A stretch of 27,293 nucleotides of DNA from a virus: IMG/VR virus record IMGVR_UViG_3300017991_000351, positions 1 to 27,293 of that record. One strand, 5' to 3'. The notes below the pieces were generated by a model that was not told the DNA's origin, made no database searches, and was given only the letters and a program-made list of their open reading frames with translations. The position numbers and the translations under genes are program-made. Of this stretch, positions 1,065-22,415 are shown in pieces. Positions within the stretch are counted from its first letter, which is position 1. Each line of letters begins with the position of its first letter.

Positions 1065-4007
1065 ATGGCTGAGGCGGATGCCATTTTTGACGGGCTGACA
1101 CCGGAGGAGCAAGCCGTGGTGGTCCAGATTGCCACGGAGATGGAGGATGAGGGTCGTTCCGTGACTCTGGAGGCCATGTTGGGCATGGAGTATGACTACT
1201 TCCTACCTGATATGGAGACCTTCCTCACGGATGACTACTATATGGGACAGACTGGCCGGAGCCTCTACCCCAAGCTCCTGGATGACCTCATTGAAATCTT
1301 TGAGGGAGGCCCGTACATCGAAATCCACCTCACCGGAGGCATTGGGTGGGGTAAATCCACGGTGGCGGAGTTCATAATGGCCCGGATGATAGCCGAATGT
1401 TGGGTCCACAAAGACCCGGCGGCTGCTTTTGGACTCATGCCGGGGTCAACCATCTCGTTCGTGAACATCTCAGTGAGTGAATCTCAGGCCCGGAGGGTCA
1501 TTTTCAAGGGCCTCTACCAAAAAGTGGCCAGATCGCCGTTTTTCAAGGAGCATTGCCGGTCAGACCCCCGAGTGGTGACGGAATTGCGCTTCCCCAAGGA
1601 GCTTTGGATGGCCCCGGTGGCCTCTACGGACAGTTCAGTGCTCGGATTGGACCTTTGGGGAGGGATTATGGATGAGTGCGTGACTGGAGACTCCCTGATT
1701 TTGATGGGGGATGGTACGCAAAAACGGGCTGACGCCGTGAGGACCGGTGAATTGGTCCAGTCGGTGGATTTTAAGTCCGGAAGGTCCGTGAGCGGGGAGG
1801 TGGAGGTTCGTAAGTCTACGGTTCAGGAGTGTGTGGAGCTTGAGCTTGACAACGGGAGCGTTCTCAGGGGATCGTTGGACCATCCCATACTTGTGGTTCG
1901 TGATGGGAAGTTGACTTTTGAATTATTGGGCGCTATCATTGATGAGAGTGTGGTAGTATTAAAGGAGGCGTTCAATGAACAAGTCGGAGAAGATATCCAG
2001 AGCTATGAAAGCAAAGTGGGCGGACCCGGAATACCGGGAGAAGATGTCCAAGATGCGCCGGGAACGGAAAGACCTTGTGGCGATATCCAAGGAGAACCTT
2101 CCCAAAACCGGGAGGGGGGAGGACAACCCCTTTTATGGCCGGAACCATTCTCCCGAAGCCAAGAAAAAGGTGGGGGATGCCAACCGTGGGCGCAAGGCGT
2201 CCAAGGAAACCCGTGCCAAGATGAGTGCGGCTCGCAAGGGGAAGCCTTGCCATACGGAGGAGTTCAAGGAGAGACTCAGGGAGAGAAATCGGACACGTGT
2301 TTTTCGGCATACCCCGGAATCAAGGGCCAAGATATCAAAATCGAGCGCATGGGCCTTGAGGAAGGGAGATTTTCGTTACTTGGGCAAGGCGGAGACAGTG
2401 AAAGGCGGAGTTGTGGGGTTTCGGAGCCTCTACGAGTTGCGGGCGCTGGAGCTTTTGGAGGAGTTGCTCGTGGTTCAGTCATTCAATTACGAGAGCATTT
2501 CCGTTCCTTATCGTTGGGATGGGGTGGACCGTCACACCGTCCCGGATTTTGTGGCTCAAATGGGAGACAAGACCGTGGTGATCGAGGTAAAGCCCCTTGG
2601 CTACACCTATGCGAAGAAAGAAAAAGCAAAGTTGGCCGCTGTAATAGCGTATTGTCAGGCTCACGGGATGGAGTTTCAGGTCTGGACCGAAGATATACTT
2701 TGGCCCGCGTCAAATCCAAGAGGTTCTTGGGTGCCTTACCTACCTTTAGCCTATGTGTCAGACCTTGGCAAGTCTTTATTGCGAATGGAGTAGTCACTCA
2801 TAACACCAATTTCATGACCGTCGTGGAGAAGTCCAAGGCCGCTGGAAGGGGAAATAAGCGGTTTGATCTTGCGGAGAGCGTCTACTACTCCATCCAGAGG
2901 AGGATGAAATCGAGGTTCATGGACGCCGGGACCATCCCCGGTAAGCTGGTGATTGTCTCCTCCAAGAACTACCCGGACACCTTCATGGAAAGGAGGATCA
3001 AAGAGGTCCGTGACACCGGTGAGGAGGGGGTTTTCATCCGAGACTATGCCACTTGGGAGCCAAAACGGTCCGGAACGTACTCAGGGGTCACTTTTCCGGT
3101 TGAGGCCGGTAGTATTTCCCACACCTCCCGGATTTTGGATGAGGAACAGGCTAAAAATTCGGTGGGCACGATTGTATGGGTGCCAGAGGAGTTCCGAAAG
3201 GACTTTGAGAGGGACATTGATCAGGCCGTGAGGGACTTGGCTGGCATCGCCACGGCCACCATCAACCCCTATTTCAAGGATTTTCGGAGGGTTTTCAACT
3301 CCATTGATGACCGAATCCACCCATTCACGGCTGAGGCTACCAATCTCCTGGACGGGGCCGACTTTATCAAGGCCGCTCTCGTGGAGCAGGAACAGCGGAC
3401 CTTAAAATTCAAGCCCCGTTTGTTTCCAGAGGCTCCAAGGTGGGTCCACGTAGACCCGTCCGTCTCGGGGGACGCCACCGGCATTGCCATGGGGCATGTG
3501 GCTGGCCTCATCGAGATCGACAAGAGGGATGATGACACGGAGGAGTGGAAAAAAGAGGACGCTCCCCTCATTTGCATTGACTTTATGCTCAGGGTGGTGC
3601 CTCCTCCCGGCGGGGAGATCAGATTTGGGAGTGTACGCCAACTGGTGTATAATCTTACTGAGATGGGGTTCAACATACGTGGAGTATCCTATGACTCCTA
3701 CCAGAGCCGGGAATCCCTCCAGCATTATCGGGAACGCGGTTACCAAGCGGAGCAGTTTTCCGTGGAGAAGGAGGACGCCTACAAGCTCCTCAAGGATGCG
3801 TTTTATGAAGGGCGGATCAAGTTTTACAAATACGCTCCGGTCCTCAAGGAATTGCGGCAACTTGAGCACGATGGCAAAACCGGGAAGGTGGATCATCCTC
3901 CTGGAGGCTCCAAGGACGTTGCGGACGCCCTTTGCGGCGTTGTGGTGGGCCTCATGAGGGTAATGCAAGTCTCAAGCAAGGTAAAATACGGGGTTCAGGT
4001 GTTCTAA
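1065..4007 (+). CDS. terL: Large terminase subunit (ATPase/nuclease) interrupted by an intein
   Basis: This is the DNA-packaging motor, which translocates DNA into the prohead through the portal and cuts it. The 980-aa precursor contains a Walker A motif GGIGWGKST (residues 91-99) and a Walker B ending LWGGIMDE (residues 197-204). An intein follows immediately at Cys205 and ends at Asn580, with Thr581 as the +1 residue. The spliced protein would be 604 aa, normal for TerL. The RNase H-like nuclease domain follows: HVDPS with Asp797, SYDS with Asp877, and DVADAL with Asp951/Asp954 are the likely metal ligands. ATG at 1065 follows TTGGAGGG. The stop overlaps the next start as TAATG. Splicing is required to restore the ATPase site. 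Confidence 0.96.
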   Translation: MAEADAIFDGLTPEEQAVVVQIATEMEDEGRSVTLEAMLGMEYDYFLPDMETFLTDDYYMGQTGRSLYPKLLDDLIEIFEGGPYIEIHLTGGIGWGKSTVAEFIMARMIAECWVHKDPAAAFGLMPGSTISFVNISVSESQARRVIFKGLYQKVARSPFFKEHCRSDPRVVTELRFPKELWMAPVASTDSSVLGLDLWGGIMDECVTGDSLILMGDGTQKRADAVRTGELVQSVDFKSGRSVSGEVEVRKSTVQECVELELDNGSVLRGSLDHPILVVRDGKLTFELLGAIIDESVVVLKEAFNEQVGEDIQSYESKVGGPGIPGEDVQDAPGTERPCGDIQGEPSQNREGGGQPLLWPEPFSRSQEKGGGCQPWAQGVQGNPCQDECGSQGEALPYGGVQGETQGEKSDTCFSAYPGIKGQDIKIERMGLEEGRFSLLGQGGDSERRSCGVSEPLRVAGAGAFGGVARGSVIQLREHFRSLSLGWGGPSHRPGFCGSNGRQDRGDRGKAPWLHLCEERKSKVGRCNSVLSGSRDGVSGLDRRYTLARVKSKRFLGALPTFSLCVRPWQVFIANGVVTHNTNFMTVVEKSKAAGRGNKRFDLAESVYYSIQRRMKSRFMDAGTIPGKLVIVSSKNYPDTFMERRIKEVRDTGEEGVFIRDYATWEPKRSGTYSGVTFPVEAGSISHTSRILDEEQAKNSVGTIVWVPEEFRKDFERDIDQAVRDLAGIATATINPYFKDFRRVFNSIDDRIHPFTAEATNLLDGADFIKAALVEQEQRTLKFKPRLFPEAPRWVHVDPSVSGDATGIAMGHVAGLIEIDKRDDDTEEWKKEDAPLICIDFMLRVVPPPGGEIRFGSVRQLVYNLTEMGFNIRGVSYDSYQSRESLQHYRERGYQAEQFSVEKEDAYKLLKDAFYEGRIKFYKYAPVLKELRQLEHDGKTGKVDHPPGGSKDVADALCGVVVGLMRVMQVSSKVKYGVQVF
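1677..2804 (+). other. Intein in terminase, with an out-of-frame nuclease gene nested inside
   Basis: The 376-residue intein starts with Cys1 (CVTGDSLILMGDGT, block A). A block B-like segment, VLRGSLDHPIL, has Ser in place of the usual Thr of TxxH. It ends FIANGVVTHN followed by Thr, a textbook C-terminal splice junction with penultimate His and terminal Asn. The HINT N-part covers roughly intein residues 1-100 and the C-part roughly residues 340-376 (from about 2694). Between them lie some 240 in-frame codons that encode a Gly/Gln/Pro/Ser-rich sequence with no domain I recognise. The same DNA encodes a nuclease in the +1 frame. The insertion follows the Walker B Asp-Glu of TerL. Confidence 0.92.
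1975..2793 (+). CDS. Homing endonuclease candidate (NUMOD3 repeats + PD-(D/E)xK nuclease)
   Basis: This 272-aa gene lies wholly inside the terminase intein, in the +1 frame. ATG at 1975 has AAAGGAGG at 1961-1968, an ideal ribosome binding site, and the same frame has stops TAG at 1954 and TAA at 1960 just upstream. Residues about 48-92 (NPFYGRNHSPEAKKK, then KASKETRAKMSAARKGK) match NUMOD3 DNA-binding modules, known from homing nucleases; a partly similar segment follows at 112-123. The catalytic part resembles TnsA-like PD-(D/E)xK enzymes: FRSLYELRAL with Glu154, VPDF with Asp191, and IEVKP with Glu204/Lys206. Recognisable nuclease sequence ends near TEDIL (residue 242); the last 30 residues come from DNA that encodes the intein C-part in the other frame. 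The presumed role is cutting intein-free terL alleles. The fold assignment is by eye. Confidence 0.88.
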   Translation: MNKSEKISRAMKAKWADPEYREKMSKMRRERKDLVAISKENLPKTGRGEDNPFYGRNHSPEAKKKVGDANRGRKASKETRAKMSAARKGKPCHTEEFKERLRERNRTRVFRHTPESRAKISKSSAWALRKGDFRYLGKAETVKGGVVGFRSLYELRALELLEELLVVQSFNYESISVPYRWDGVDRHTVPDFVAQMGDKTVVIEVKPLGYTYAKKEKAKLAAVIAYCQAHGMEFQVWTEDILWPASNPRGSWVPYLPLAYVSDLGKSLLRME

Positions 4008-4318: not shown

Positions 4319-7093
4319 ATGGGACAGACTGGAAATCGAGGGACCAAAACTCGTAGAGGCTCTCGTGGAGCTAAAAAGACCGGAAAGCCACTTGAGAGGG
4401 TGGTAAACGCTGAGGAAGGAGTGGTGGTCAAGGTCTTGGAGTTCGGCGGAGATACTCCAGCCCGTGGATCCTCAAAACAGCTACTCCCGGACCTCTTTGA
4501 ATCGGTGGTCCAGGAAGGGGAGGTGATCCGGCCTCTCTACGATCCCCTCCTTTGGGCCATGCTCCTGGAGCAAAACGTCCGCTTGAACCGGTGCATTGGG
4601 GCCATGGCTCTCAATACCGTTGGTTTGGGCTTTGAATTGGCTCCTCTCCGGGAAACCAAAGAGTTCAATGAGGAGAACGCCAAGAACATCGAGGATGAGA
4701 GGGCACGGTTGATGCCCTTGTTCAAGTACCCCAACCCCGAATACTCCTTTGAGGAGATGATGCAGTGGATCAAGACCGATGAGGAGGCTGAGGGGCAGTC
4801 CTACATGGAGGTTACCAGAGACGGGAAGGGGGAGATTGACGGGATGTACCATGCTCCCGGCCACACCATCCGCGTCATGGCCAAAGGAGAGGGCTTCCTC
4901 CAGATGAGGACGGGCATTGGGTCCGAATCATTCCTATTCTCTCCCGGAAAAACGTCCAAGGACTCCGTGGAGAAGGTCTATTTCAAGAATTTCGGGGACA
5001 AAAGGCTCATGGACAAGAACAATGGGGAGTTTGGTGAGGTGGTTCCACGGGAGGATCAGGCCAACGAGCTTATCATGTTCAAAATCTACTCTCCCCGGTC
5101 CTCCTACTACGGAGTGCCCCGTTTCGTGGCGGCTGCTCCGGCCATATCCGGTAACCGCCTAGCACAGTTGAGAAATGTGGCCTTCTTTGAGAACGACGCC
5201 ACCCCGAGACTGGCCGTTATCGTGTCCGGAGGGACGCTAGATTCCGGGTCCGTGAAGATGATCCAAAATTTCATCGAAGCCAAGGGCAAGGGAGTGGCCA
5301 ATTACGGACGGGTCATGGTCCTTCAGCCTGAAGCCAAGGAGGCCGTTCCAGGAGCGGAGGTAGGCAACGCCAAGATTGACCTCATGCCGCTCACCGTGGG
5401 GGTCACTGAGGACGCTTCCTTCACCCGTTACCTCATGCTCAACGATGAGATCATAAGGGAGGCGTTCGGCATCGGCAAGATTTTCTTGGGGACAGCGGAT
5501 GACGTGAACCGGGCGTGTTATTCGGAGGATACTGAGACGCTTACCAAGGGCGGCTGGAAAAAGTTTGAGGAGTTGACGGGAGATGAGGAGGTGCTTGCCG
5601 TAGACCCTAAAACTGGAAAGGGGGAGTACCTTCGGCCCGACAAACTTTGTGTTTACCCCTACCAAGGGAAAATGGTGGAGGTGGAAAATAGGGGAACGTC
5701 CTTTAAGGTGACCCCCGACCATAAGGTATTATTTAGGTCCGGAACTGATGACCGGAATGGGTGGGTACAAGGAGAGGCTCAAGAGATGGCAAAATACTCT
5801 CGCTTTAGGGTGAGAGTATCCCCTGAATTCCGGGACAATGACGTTGATCAAGCGTTTTTCTTGCTCCCTGGAGTGGAAGTGAGGCACGGAGCCAACGACG
5901 CATCTCGTGAACGGAATAAGGGACCGTGGAAAATACCTACGGAGGCGTGGAGCAAGTTTATAGGGTATTTTGTGACGGAAGGCTTCCTTGGGGACGTGGA
6001 AAAGACGGGGCGGTATGTTGTTGGATTATCTCAAAATGAGCGCATTTATCCAGACAAGGTGCGAGATATCAGGGAATTTCTAGACGAATTTCCGTTGGCT
6101 TTTTCGGAGTCCTCTTATGATGACGGGATGGTGAGGTGGACCATCTCGTGGAAGGCGCTTTGGATCTATTTGGAGGCAAATTGTGGTCGTGGGGCGGAAA
6201 ATAAACACCTTCCTCCTACTTTTAGGGGGTGGGGAAACCCCTCTCTTGAACGCCTTTTTTGGGCCATGGTAGATGGTGATGGCCATGTTTATCAAACAAA
6301 GGGTAAGGTGTCTGGATATTACTATTCCATATCGGGCAAATTGGTTGATGACTTTCAAGAGCTTTGCGTGTTGACTGGTAGACGGGGACAGGTTTGCTCC
6401 CTTCAAGATCCGCGTCCTAATCGCAAGCCGGGCTTCAAGGTGCATTGGGCTGAACGTGACAAAATTTCCGTCTATCAAGATTCTTGCATTGAGGTTGATT
6501 ATGACGGCAAGGTGTATTGTTTCGCGCTCCCCAAGCATCACTTTTATGTGACACGACGGAACGGAAAGTTGGCAGTTCAAGGGAACACGGCGTTCACCAT
6601 GAAGCAAATTACGATGGAGCAAGTCTTTGAGCCGGAGATCAAACGCTACGAGCATCGTCTCAACATCACCATCATGCGGGATCTTGGAGCCAAGTACACG
6701 AAGCTCCGGTTCAAGCGTCCCCGGATGACCGACGTGACTCAAGAGGCTCTGGCCTATGCCACGCTGGCGGCGGCTGGAGGCGTGACCCCCAATGACATCC
6801 GTGAACTTCTTGGCTTTGATGACTTTGCCGCTGATTGGGCCAACACCCCAATTTCAGTTCTCAAGATGGGTTACACGGAGGGTGACGTGGAGCAACCGCC
6901 CAACGTAGAGGAGGAGCCGGGGGCTGGCCGTCCTCCGGCGGGTCCAAAAACGGATGATCCTGAAGGGGACAGGAAACGAATTGAGAAGCTCTACGGGGAG
7001 GCTACCGGCTACCGTGGGGGACTTAATGTGATCGCTGATGGAGACCCTTTGGAGGTGTTGAAAACTCTCCGCAATATTGCGATAGAGGGGTGA
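4319..7093 (+). CDS. Portal protein interrupted by an intein
   Basis: Dodecameric head vertex protein through which DNA is packaged; it anchors terminase and later the neck. The precursor is 924 aa; removing the 357-residue intein leaves 567 aa. The portal core is recognisable from PLYDPLLWAMLLEQN (about residues 73-87), SSYYGVPRF (about 263-271) and the following FFENDATP. After the intein comes EPEIKRYEHRLN and, near residue 820, GVTPNDIRELLGF. The intein is inserted within VNRA/TAFTM, just after the segment GKIFLGTADD where the portal approaches its conserved helix. AGGAGG at 4308-4313 sets ATG 4319. The C-terminus is acidic and Pro-rich before a final helix. Confidence 0.93.
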   Translation: MGQTGNRGTKTRRGSRGAKKTGKPLERVVNAEEGVVVKVLEFGGDTPARGSSKQLLPDLFESVVQEGEVIRPLYDPLLWAMLLEQNVRLNRCIGAMALNTVGLGFELAPLRETKEFNEENAKNIEDERARLMPLFKYPNPEYSFEEMMQWIKTDEEAEGQSYMEVTRDGKGEIDGMYHAPGHTIRVMAKGEGFLQMRTGIGSESFLFSPGKTSKDSVEKVYFKNFGDKRLMDKNNGEFGEVVPREDQANELIMFKIYSPRSSYYGVPRFVAAAPAISGNRLAQLRNVAFFENDATPRLAVIVSGGTLDSGSVKMIQNFIEAKGKGVANYGRVMVLQPEAKEAVPGAEVGNAKIDLMPLTVGVTEDASFTRYLMLNDEIIREAFGIGKIFLGTADDVNRACYSEDTETLTKGGWKKFEELTGDEEVLAVDPKTGKGEYLRPDKLCVYPYQGKMVEVENRGTSFKVTPDHKVLFRSGTDDRNGWVQGEAQEMAKYSRFRVRVSPEFRDNDVDQAFFLLPGVEVRHGANDASRERNKGPWKIPTEAWSKFIGYFVTEGFLGDVEKTGRYVVGLSQNERIYPDKVRDIREFLDEFPLAFSESSYDDGMVRWTISWKALWIYLEANCGRGAENKHLPPTFRGWGNPSLERLFWAMVDGDGHVYQTKGKVSGYYYSISGKLVDDFQELCVLTGRRGQVCSLQDPRPNRKPGFKVHWAERDKISVYQDSCIEVDYDGKVYCFALPKHHFYVTRRNGKLAVQGNTAFTMKQITMEQVFEPEIKRYEHRLNITIMRDLGAKYTKLRFKRPRMTDVTQEALAYATLAAAGGVTPNDIRELLGFDDFAADWANTPISVLKMGYTEGDVEQPPNVEEEPGAGRPPAGPKTDDPEGDRKRIEKLYGEATGYRGGLNVIADGDPLEVLKTLRNIAIEG
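5516..6586 (+). other. Portal intein with in-frame LAGLIDADG homing endonuclease
   Basis: The 357-residue intein starts with Cys (CYSEDTETLTKGGW) at portal residue 400. Block B is KVTPDHKVLF with T66xxH69. The endonuclease domain has two dodecapeptide motifs, FIGYFVTEGFLG (acid Glu155) and LFWAMVDGDGH (acid Asp255), the expected pair of metal-binding acids. The C-part reads GKVYCFALPKHHFYV and ends LAVQGN followed by Thr. The penultimate residue is Gly instead of His, an atypical but known variant. The domain is in frame with the portal, in contrast to the terminase intein. Confidence 0.94.
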
Positions 7094-11102: not shown

Positions 11103-12410
11103 ATGAGCGGAGCGAATGAAGCGTTGATTGAAAAAACCCTTGAGAGTGGGGACTTTTTTGCCGGTGGGCAGATCAATCCCACTCAACAGGCGGAATTTGT
11201 CCGTCTGGTCAAGGACTTCTCGGTAATGTTGAGCATGGTCCGGTTCGTGGACATGCCCACCAAGCGTTACCTCATCGACAAGATCCATCTCGGTGAACCC
11301 ATCACCCGTGGCATTGCGGAGAACACCAATGCCATGACCAATCTGGCGCAGCCCAAAATGAACCAGATTGAGTTGACCACCGAAAAAATCAAAACGGCCT
11401 ACGCCATCACCACGGAGGCTCTCCAGGTCGCCCTCACCCAGGAGGACTTGGAGGACACGGTGCTGGAACTGGTGACCAAACGGTACTCCACCGACGTGGA
11501 AATCTTGGCCATCAGCGGCGACGACTCCATCACGGCCACCGATCCCATGTCCGAACTCCGCAAGGTGCTGGACGGTTGGGACAAACTCACCGACGACGCC
11601 CAAATCGTGGACGCCGGTGCGGCCACCATCTCCAAGAGCATCTTCACGGACATGCTCCGCAAGATGCCCCAACAGTTCCTCCAGGATCCGGACCTCCGGT
11701 GGCTCGTTTCCCGGATGACCAACATTGACTGGATGGACACCATCGCGGACCGCGAAACCGCCTTGGGTGACGCCGCCTACCGTGGCGACGCTCCCCCGGT
11801 GCTAGGAGTCCCGGCGTCCATCATCCCGCTGATCCCGGCGGACATGCCCGTGGCGGCTGGCGCGGTGGCCACTCCGGCCATCGTGGTCGGGGTACAGTAC
11901 GGTCCTTTCGAGATCCGTACCGGCGTCAATGACCTCATCGACATCGACGTGGACAACGCCGGAGCCTACGAGATGGCCCTTCCGGAAGGCGTATGGGAGG
12001 CCATTCGTATCGCGGCCTTCATCAACGCCGACGCCACCTTCATCGCCAACGGTCTCGTGGCCTCAGACGATGACGGGAGGCTCAGGTTGACCTCCTCCAC
12101 CACCGGTGCCGCGTCCGAGATCGACATTCAGGCCCCGTCCACCCCGGCACAGGCGGCTTACGCCACCTTGGGCCTCACCATCGCCGTCGTCACCGGAGCG
12201 GCGTCCGGAGCAGGGACCGTGTTGGAGGGCACTTTCATGTGGCTCGCCAACCCCATGAACTTCATCTTCGGAATGCTGGACCAGACCCGCGTGTTCAGCG
12301 AGTTCAACAAGGACTACGACCGCGTAGAGGTGGTCATGTACAATGAGGTGGCCGTCCAGATCGAGAATCTGGAGTCCATCGTCAAGGCCATCAACATCAA
12401 GCGCAAATAG
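11103..12410 (+). CDS. Major capsid protein (HK97 fold) with an inserted domain
   Basis: Main shell protein, 435 aa, right after the protease/scaffold gene with AGGAGGT upstream. The N-terminal part (residues about 30-110, including ITRGIAENTNA and KIKTAYAITTEAL) and the helix-rich centre (WLVSRMTNIDWMDTI near 200-214) match the usual capsid pattern of E-loop, spine helix and P-domain. The C-terminus (MNFIFGMLDQTRVFSEFNKD to the end) is the typical closing P-domain strand and A-domain. Between them, residues about 265-375 (GPFEIRTGVNDLIDIDV, GRLRLTSSTTGAASEI) look like a separate beta-rich surface domain similar to flagellin-hook-IN-type repeats. No clear N-terminal scaffold segment is seen. 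A palindrome follows the stop at 12415. Confidence 0.9.
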   Translation: MSGANEALIEKTLESGDFFAGGQINPTQQAEFVRLVKDFSVMLSMVRFVDMPTKRYLIDKIHLGEPITRGIAENTNAMTNLAQPKMNQIELTTEKIKTAYAITTEALQVALTQEDLEDTVLELVTKRYSTDVEILAISGDDSITATDPMSELRKVLDGWDKLTDDAQIVDAGAATISKSIFTDMLRKMPQQFLQDPDLRWLVSRMTNIDWMDTIADRETALGDAAYRGDAPPVLGVPASIIPLIPADMPVAAGAVATPAIVVGVQYGPFEIRTGVNDLIDIDVDNAGAYEMALPEGVWEAIRIAAFINADATFIANGLVASDDDGRLRLTSSTTGAASEIDIQAPSTPAQAAYATLGLTIAVVTGAASGAGTVLEGTFMWLANPMNFIFGMLDQTRVFSEFNKDYDRVEVVMYNEVAVQIENLESIVKAINIKRK

Positions 12411-12414
12411 TCCG

Positions 12415-12430
12415 TTGCACACGTGTGCAA
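12415..12430. promoter_or_regulatory. Palindromic site after the capsid gene
   Basis: TTGCACACGTGTGCAA is a perfect 16-base palindrome, identical over 16 bases to the fourth site before terminase (1033-1048). It starts five bases after the capsid stop and ends ten bases before the AGGAGGTG of the next gene. The gap is 39 bases, so there is little room for a separate promoter. It has no loop and no T-run and so is not a terminator. Confidence 0.7.
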
Positions 12431-19894: not shown

Positions 19895-21862
19895 ATGGCT
19901 CAGGCTCCGGGCGTACACATCCGTGAAACGGACGTGCTAAGGACAATCGAGGGTGTCCCCGTAGACATCGCGGCGGCTTTTGGAGTCGCTCAAAGGGGAC
20001 CGGACAATGAACTTCGGTTGGTCATCTCGTTTGATGACTTTCAGGGGAAATATGGGAGCTTTTATCAAGGCTCTTACCTCCCGCATTTGGTCCGGGGCTT
20101 TTTCCGGCAAGGCGGGACGGCTCTCTACATCGGGCGCACGGTTGGCTCCGGTGCGGCCAAATCCGCTGGAGCGGCTGATGCCGTTGGCGGCGTGGCGGAC
20201 ACCGTGGACATCCAGGGCCGCGACGTGGGAGAGTACGGAAACTCCATCCTCTCCGATTTCACCAAAGCGGAAACTACCCTCACGGCGGCTTCGGCGGCGA
20301 TTGACACGGAGATCACCGTGGCCTCCATCGGACAGTTTGAGTTGGGTGACTGCATTGTGATGAACGATGGCTCCAACAAGTACACCGGGATCGTGGTTGG
20401 CGTGGACGTGCCCACCAAAAAGCTCAAATTGAGCGTGGCGGTAGGCTTCATCTTTGCCATCGGGGTGGAGGTCAAGACCTCAACCTCTCATCGAGCCAAC
20501 ACCAAAATCGTGACCGGTTTCGCGGTGGGAGCATCCACCGTCCAGTTCACCGTGACCAACTCCTTCAACATCCGGGTGGGAGACCTCCTGATGATCATGA
20601 CGGGAGACATCTCCACGGACTATATGTTCACGGAGGTCCGCGTCACCGGCGTGAACGGGTCCACGATTTTCGCGGACGTTCTCAATGAGGACAACAGCGT
20701 CATCACCACGATGCCAGCCGACGCTCACGTGACCGTCCAGGGGTTCAACGTCACCACCACCTACAACGGGGTGGGACAGACCTACTCCTTCATCTCACTG
20801 GAGTCCGAGAACGCCATCGACTACGTGGATGAACGTCTTGGCGGAGAGCGCAACGAGTCCGATCTTGTTGAGTTGCTCGACGCCGGGAACGTGGAGGTCA
20901 CCAACTGGCGGATCGAGCAATATCCCGCTCCCTACCAGTGGGCAATGTCCGGGGGCTTGGACGGTGCCGCTCCGGCGGACATCGACTATCTCGGGACCAA
21001 CCCGGCCAAGGCGTACAAGCACGGCATCCGTCTGATGGATGAAAATTACCAGATCAGCACCTTTGCCATCCCCGGTGTCACGTCGGCGGGCGTCATCGGC
21101 GGGGCCGATTCTTACGCTCAGGGAAAGCGTTTGGATTTCGTGGGAGACTGCCCTTTGGCGGCGGACACCCTGGATGAGCTTCTGGAGTACCGGAATTTCA
21201 CCTTGGGACTGGACACCTCCTACACGGCCATCTATGCGCCGTGGTTCCGGGAGGAGAATCCCCAAATCCCCGGCGCTCTCTTGGAGCTTCCTCCCTCATG
21301 CCGTCAATTAGGAGTCAACTCCTCCACGGCGGCAAGAGAAGGCGTCCACAAGGCTCCGGCCAACGTGGAATACTACGATACGGTCAATCTGGTGGCGGAT
21401 TTCTCCGAGACTGAGCACGGCATTCTCAACGAAGCCGGGATCAACCTCATTCGGATCTTCCCTGGACGCGGTATCAGGGTGTTCGGAGCGCGGACCCTCT
21501 ACTCCGGCAGAGACGGCAGACAGTTCGTGCCCGTCCGGAGGCTGGCAAACTACGTGGAGAGGTCCGTGGCCAACTTGGCCTTTGAGTTCACGTTTGACGT
21601 TATCACGGAGGTCTTGTGGGCACGTATCGCCGGGGCCATTGACCGGTTCCTCCGCAACCTCTGGAAGGCGGGGATGCTCTATCCGCGTAACGACGCCACC
21701 CGCGCCTTCTTTGTCCTCATCAATGAGGGCCTCAACCCCACGGAGGTGGTCCGAGAAGGCCGCGTCCGGGGCAAGGTAGCGTTCTCTCCGGCCCCTCCGG
21801 CGGAGCAGATTGAGTTGGACATTGCACTTTGGGCGGGTAATTCCGAGATCGCTGAAGGCTAA
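19895..21862 (+). CDS. Contractile tail sheath protein
   Basis: ATG at 19895 with AAGGAGGTGG upstream. The 655-aa protein forms the contractile outer tail. It begins APGVHIRETDVLRTIEGVP, the usual sheath N-terminus, followed by FGVAQRGPDNE and GYF-like segments (HLVRGFFRQGGTALYIGR). The C-terminal domain is recognisable: EAGINLIRIFPGRGIRVFGA, VPVRRLANYVERSVA, and LYPRNDATRAFFVLINEGLN. Between these, residues about 125-195 and 205-283 are two similar beta modules that would face outward; the same type occurs in the adaptor at 12957. Presence of sheath defines the particle as a myovirus. Confidence 0.93.
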   Translation: MAQAPGVHIRETDVLRTIEGVPVDIAAAFGVAQRGPDNELRLVISFDDFQGKYGSFYQGSYLPHLVRGFFRQGGTALYIGRTVGSGAAKSAGAADAVGGVADTVDIQGRDVGEYGNSILSDFTKAETTLTAASAAIDTEITVASIGQFELGDCIVMNDGSNKYTGIVVGVDVPTKKLKLSVAVGFIFAIGVEVKTSTSHRANTKIVTGFAVGASTVQFTVTNSFNIRVGDLLMIMTGDISTDYMFTEVRVTGVNGSTIFADVLNEDNSVITTMPADAHVTVQGFNVTTTYNGVGQTYSFISLESENAIDYVDERLGGERNESDLVELLDAGNVEVTNWRIEQYPAPYQWAMSGGLDGAAPADIDYLGTNPAKAYKHGIRLMDENYQISTFAIPGVTSAGVIGGADSYAQGKRLDFVGDCPLAADTLDELLEYRNFTLGLDTSYTAIYAPWFREENPQIPGALLELPPSCRQLGVNSSTAAREGVHKAPANVEYYDTVNLVADFSETEHGILNEAGINLIRIFPGRGIRVFGARTLYSGRDGRQFVPVRRLANYVERSVANLAFEFTFDVITEVLWARIAGAIDRFLRNLWKAGMLYPRNDATRAFFVLINEGLNPTEVVREGRVRGKVAFSPAPPAEQIELDIALWAGNSEIAEG

Positions 21863-22401: not shown

Positions 22402-22415
22402 TGCACACGTGTGCA
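22402..22415. promoter_or_regulatory. Palindromic site after the tail tube gene
   Basis: TGCACACGTGTGCA is a perfect 14-base palindrome starting one base after the tube stop. It is identical over these bases to the sites at 1008-1021, 1034-1047 and 12416-12429. It opens an 82-base gap, longer than most in the cluster, before the chaperone gene. No clear -35/-10 pair was found in the remainder of the gap. Confidence 0.68.

Follow-up and report, generated by a model that had tools for sequence, protein, structure and literature searches.

The window analysed here is a 27,293-bp IMG/VR virus record (IMGVR_UViG_3300017991_000351) from a contractile-tailed phage, marked as such by a tail sheath gene at 19895-21862. 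Its terminase gene, terL, occupies positions 1065-4007 of the plus strand, on which all the intein and nuclease features described below also lie, and forms one continuous open reading frame of 980 codons, in which two exteins (1065-1676 and 2805-4004) flank a continuous intein of 376 residues (1677-2804) with no stop anywhere in frame 0. The insertion point immediately follows the Walker B Asp-Glu, with the junctions GGIMDE/C...THN/TNF. Nested within it, in the +1 frame, is a second gene (1975-2793) encoding a 272-residue protein that combines NUMOD3 repeats with a TnsA-like PD-(D/E)xK nuclease domain.

The splicing elements of the intein are confined to its two ends, namely an N-terminal segment (residues 1-98; 1677-1970) and a C-terminal segment (2673-2804). 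The catalytic residues Cys1, block-B His69, penultimate His375 and Asn376 are invariant across an alignment of four inteins at the same site, and the +1 residue is Thr. An AlphaFold2 model of the TerL-frame intein recovers a confident Hint fold only at residues 1-98 and approximately 333-376 (predicted local distance difference test, pLDDT, of 74-93 in the N-terminal blocks and 86-92 over the last ~35 residues), and Foldseek searches with this model retrieved a hedgehog autoprocessing (Hint) domain (2.3e-6) and inteins (1e-5 to 1e-3). The insertion is precise and is absent from L003 and other TerL homologues. By analogy with the TerL6-f intein of phage Chandler, which spliced in an E. coli reporter (PMC5050341), the intein of the window may be expected to splice. 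The linker between the two segments (residues 99-332; 1971-2672) is predicted to be disordered, with pLDDT below 50, and coincides with the nested open reading frame. Pfam searches of the TerL frame returned weak Hint/intein matches and no endonuclease, and the linker searched alone against the PHROG families gave no match. These results, taken together with the disordered model, led us to reject an endonuclease or other domain encoded in frame within the linker. The initial annotation had already described a terminase frame open through the intein, with roughly 240 codons devoid of a recognisable domain between the splicing segments, and both observations are borne out.

The nested gene has the initiation signals of an independent unit: its ATG at 1975 is preceded at a distance of 6 nucleotides by the Shine-Dalgarno sequence AAAGGAGG (1961-1968), and two stops in the +1 frame lie just upstream, at 1954 and 1960. 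Pfam identifies three NUMOD3 stretches (1e-13) and a TnsA-like N domain (7.7e-8) in its product, the putative active site comprises PD191 and E204-x-K206, and the best PDB matches of its structure model are TnsA. The NUMOD repeats and the PD...ExK core place the protein among the putative homing endonucleases, with the difference that canonical intein endonucleases are in-frame domains whereas this one is read from the +1 frame. Codon-usage likelihood follows frame 0 up to ~2000, the +1 frame from ~2060 to 2720 and frame 0 again thereafter, with switch points at ~2030 and ~2750 and a short ambiguous stretch near 2300. At 2694-2793 the intein C-domain (ARVKSKRFLG...) and the nuclease tail (WPASNPRGSW...) are encoded by the same DNA. 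The 272-residue NUMOD3 and PD-(D/E)xK protein, its ribosome-binding site and ATG and the two upstream stops had all been reported in the initial annotation and are confirmed here. A group I or group II intron or another structured RNA can be set aside, as an Rfam search of 1400-3100 with E up to 1 gave no match.

To see whether the open TerL frame could be due to chance, we replaced the nuclease codons by synonymous ones, running 20,000 trials of each kind, and counted TerL-frame stops over 1975-2693. On average 12-14 stops are expected by chance and none is observed, a value never reached in the 20,000 recoding trials; in the third frame the 9 stops present agree with the 7-10 expected. A TerL-frame stop arises wherever a T-ending nuclease codon precedes AA, AG or GA. 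T-ending codons are entirely missing from these contexts (0/56, against 44/116 elsewhere in the nuclease; p = 1.2e-9), and the same codon-pair bias was seen in none of 12 control gene stretches. The lack of stops, together with the missing stop-making codon pairs, indicates that selection has kept the TerL frame open, as had been supposed in the initial annotation. A second contig (L002) is free of indels relative to the window over 8,004 bp and differs in the nested region by one base (2507), a change that is silent in the TerL frame and replaces Pro by His in the nuclease.

A scan for the junction pattern uncovered a divergent counterpart in two further contigs, L150 and L149, which are identical to each other over 7,784 bp. 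The TerL of L150 is 41% identical to that of the window and bears an intein at the same site, within which a nuclease 50% identical to that of the window is encoded in the same +1 frame, with the start CAGGAGG-9 nt-ATG and a conserved PD...ExK motif; the terL frame is open there too. The two loci are 51% identical across the nested part when the nuclease frame is compared; the corresponding values for the TerL frame and the third frame are 27% and 22%. Shuffling of synonymous codons predicts a TerL-frame identity of 25 +/- 2% from the nuclease alone, and hence there is no detectable extra constraint on the TerL-frame amino acids. The initial annotation had singled out change in the two frames as a means of checking its proposal, and the outcome is a conserved nuclease frame and a TerL frame at the level that the nuclease predicts. 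Nucleotide identity at the three nuclease codon positions is.58/.63/.38, a pattern that we read as the mark of a protein maintained in that frame. We compared frames by identity rather than by a formal ratio of non-synonymous to synonymous change, because third positions are saturated between the window and L150 and L002 is only one base off. Stop avoidance recurs in L150 (0/54 against 19/122, p = 0.001; 0 stops against 5.3 expected). In the stretch corresponding to 2694-2793 both readings look conserved, with ARVKSKR/ARVVSKR in the intein frame and WPASNPR/WPASCPR in the nuclease frame.

Other states of the same insertion site were found among related phages. The TerL homologue of L003 (74% identical in protein) is without an intein and reads GGIMDE/SNFM through the junction, thereby representing the empty site. 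Two short inteins, of 180 residues in L035 and 151 residues in L145, occupy the site in other contigs. In L035 a remnant of the nuclease C-terminus persists in the same +1 frame, with a match to the TnsA-like N domain (2.2e-4), while L145 has a shorter, interrupted remnant in the same frame and shares the segment RFIVPAPKDP with L035. Both are best read, from these remnants, as deletion descendants of nested inteins, the assignment of L145 being tentative. Other TerLs of this clade have inteins of the ordinary type at other positions, namely at the P-loop in L067 (LAGLIDADG-like) and before SKD in the C-terminal domain in L082 and L125 (HNH-like). Their endonucleases are in frame and their sites different, and they therefore have no bearing on the nested state. 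A search of viral contigs with the single-domain nuclease recovered L004 only, and a junction-pattern scan of genome contigs gave 12 loci, none resembling an intein-bearing TerL.

What can be read from the sequences themselves, namely both frames, the predicted folds, the purging of stops, the conservation of the nuclease frame, the intein-free relative and the remnant in L035, leads us to the conclusion that a mobile intein very probably carries its homing nuclease here as a separate gene with its own start, read in the +1 frame of the intein linker. The initial annotation had likewise recognised, within a continuous intein, an out-of-frame homing nuclease gene of the free-standing type, and this part of it is supported. 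Most likely, a single mRNA would give two products, the TerL precursor and a free nuclease. Ribosomes translating TerL would read through the region, and the Hint domain (~98 + 44 residues) would fold around a disordered linker of ~235 residues and splice the intein out, restoring TerL. Ribosomes starting at the internal AAAGGAGG and ATG would yield the free NUMOD3-TnsA-like nuclease, which may cleave terL alleles that lack the intein, L003 being an example, and promote homing, the ensuing repair copying intein and nested gene together. Linker amino acids would be unconstrained and stops nonetheless removed, because a stop would destroy TerL. Once homing was no longer selected, in-frame deletions could leave mini-inteins of the kind seen in L035 and L145. 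Certain points weigh against this reading. Just two intact nested copies were found (window/L002 and L149/L150), nuclease third positions are near saturation between them, the nuclease model was built from two sequences and is of moderate confidence (mean pLDDT 61), and the L145 remnant is short, with an internal stop. Furthermore, splicing, internal initiation, nuclease cutting and homing in the window phage, like the status of the L145 remnant, are what we infer.

T4-like phages have fractured terminase genes at the same TerL site. In phiR1-RT, TG1 and BYEP01 a TerL-N piece with ~40 intein residues is followed by a TnsA-like nuclease gene and then by TerL-C, whereas the first piece of TB34 (TerL-N/Int-N) continues in frame into the nuclease, a two-ORF layout shared by JK32. 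These gp17 loci share with the window the TerL site after the Walker B Asp-Glu and a TnsA-like nuclease between the intein parts. They differ in that TerL is divided between two open reading frames, the intein is split after ~40 residues, and the nuclease is a non-nested gene of its own or an in-frame fusion rather than nested out of frame. Neither terL of the window (open over 1065-4007) nor that of L150 is divided in this manner. In the fractured genes of Dassa et al. 2009, essential phage genes reportedly harbour a split intein together with a free-standing nuclease gene; the intein of the window, by contrast, is continuous and overlapped. Further fractured loci with a nuclease between split intein parts were noted in the TerL of Lactobacillus phage CL2 (L041 1967-2740; C-terminal piece unannotated), in a UvsX-like gene of Vibrio phage EniLVp02 (L039 1320-3753; NUMOD3 nuclease) and in a RecA-like gene of Vibrio phage vB_VmeM-32 (L040 4156-6123).

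The existence of such fractured forms lends some plausibility to the possibility that the continuous nested intein was derived from a fractured gene through loss of the stops between the halves and rejoining of the TerL pieces. With its present codon usage an inserted nuclease would place ~12 (window) or 5 (L150) stops in the TerL frame, and TerL would therefore have required trans-splicing at first. On the other hand, no fractured TerL was found in the same clade, and a GC-richer ancestor could have entered with few stops (0.28 expected for an Angelicage-type HNH with its own codon set). We regard this derivation as possible but unlikely; it concerns origin and is compatible with the nested nuclease working at present as proposed above. 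Still less probable is the opposite course, in which the intein acquired a free-standing nuclease gene in recent times and now represents a step towards a fractured gene with a split intein; that it could be such an intermediate had been suggested in the initial annotation, and this part of it is not supported. Such a course is consistent with T4-like phages in which gp17 is fractured at this Walker B site and accompanied by a TnsA-like nuclease, and with nuclease start and stop signals like those of a free gene. However, the nested layout is shared with a TerL only 41% identical, stops are actively avoided in both the window and L150, and mini-inteins with nuclease remnants appear to descend from it. 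Moreover, the T4-like split follows ~40 intein residues and not block B, and as it thus differs from the nested insertion point there is no demonstration that nesting leads to splitting. The divergent nested homologue and the remnant-bearing mini-inteins indicate instead that the nested state is old and maintained; that it leads towards a split intein is not clear. Intein-free, nested, mini and, in T4-like phages, fractured states are now all documented at one TerL site, and the nested locus could plausibly link the continuous with the fractured inteins there.

A nuclease produced as a fusion to intein-N by programmed frameshifting, with no separate protein, might be considered in light of the in-frame fusion of TB34 and the like layout of JK32, and of a +1 frame that is free of stops over the 4 codons (window) or 12 codons (L150) upstream of the ATG. 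It is very improbable given the shortness of these stretches and a strong Shine-Dalgarno and ATG that in both phages are sensibly spaced and differ in their position relative to the intein blocks. Although an in-frame endonuclease domain is the usual form in inteins, its displacement here by assembly indels, which the initial annotation had named as one of the findings that would overturn it, is refuted by indel-free independent contigs (L002; L149/L150), by a homologue, 50% divergent, whose frames are related in the same way and by a TerL-frame stop avoidance that would not otherwise exist.

The nested arrangement has parallels in actinophages. The TerL inteins of mycobacteriophages Athena, Phlyer, Vincenzo and phi1_186018 are continuous and hide an Endonuclease-VII HNH out of frame, as do those of Gordonia phages Fosterous and Angelicage (PF02945, 2.8e-21 for Fosterous), the frame being offset by 2; the Chandler intein has a match at the same position and with the same offset. 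Comparison of five of these inteins gave identities of 49-77% in the HNH frame and of 24-42% in the TerL frame. A lack of stops is, taken alone, only weakly unusual in such GC-rich phages (permutation P of finding zero, 0.08-0.72), and the argument is therefore carried by frame conservation and not by stop counts. They thus resemble the window in having a continuous intein and a nuclease nested in another frame that is the conserved one, but differ in offset (2 versus 1), in belonging to an unrelated nuclease family and in TerL insertion site, the mycobacteriophage TerL6-f site being reported at the C-motif. The deposited annotation of the actinophage TerL loci L042, L048-L052 and L156 gives one continuous coding sequence, with the out-of-frame HNH gene unlisted. 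In two other TerL inteins cleavage activity has been linked to identifiable LAGLIDADG domains (PMC5050341).

Out-of-frame HNH insertions were published in 2025 for mycobacteriophage methylases (the ShiLan domain, Pacc40 gp60; PMC11855218). As in the window, the nuclease lies in another frame of the insertion, the host frame stays free of stops and homing is inferred; unlike the window, with its Hint intein and strong Shine-Dalgarno, the ShiLan insertion lacks a splicing domain, and no ribosome-binding site is detectable in it (PMC11855218). The same paper cites a 2025 preprint on non-canonical actinobacteriophage intein architecture (10.1101/2025.01.02.630785), in which inteins with out-of-frame nucleases may already be described. 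The apparent novelty lies in the type of nuclease, NUMOD3/TnsA-like and found in this role beyond the known actinophage cases, as well as in the clear ribosome-binding site, the quantified stop-purging signature, the divergent homologue and the remnant-bearing mini-inteins. Continuous inteins whose nuclease lies out of frame and is translated independently probably constitute a stable third architecture beside the in-frame and fractured ones. Such an architecture would have arisen at least twice (with unrelated nucleases and different frames), would persist by purging of stops and would decay to mini-inteins by deletion. An intein and a homing nuclease can travel together without sharing a polypeptide or a frame, and searches for in-frame domains only would score such inteins as nuclease-free mini-inteins. 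The overlap, in which a single sequence must encode a nuclease and yet stay free of stops in the second frame, also provides a clean natural test of the upkeep of overlapping genes.

Among other features of the window, the portal gene (4319-7093) likewise contains a continuous intein, which matches LAGLIDADG_3 weakly; L003 is without both this intein and that of TerL. The palindrome GCACAYRTGTGC is present in six copies (0 expected in shuffles), of which four form a ladder of ~26 bp spacing just upstream of terL (958-1046) and one each follows positions 12410 (12417-12428) and 22400 (22403-22414). These repeats look like operator or packaging-site repeats.
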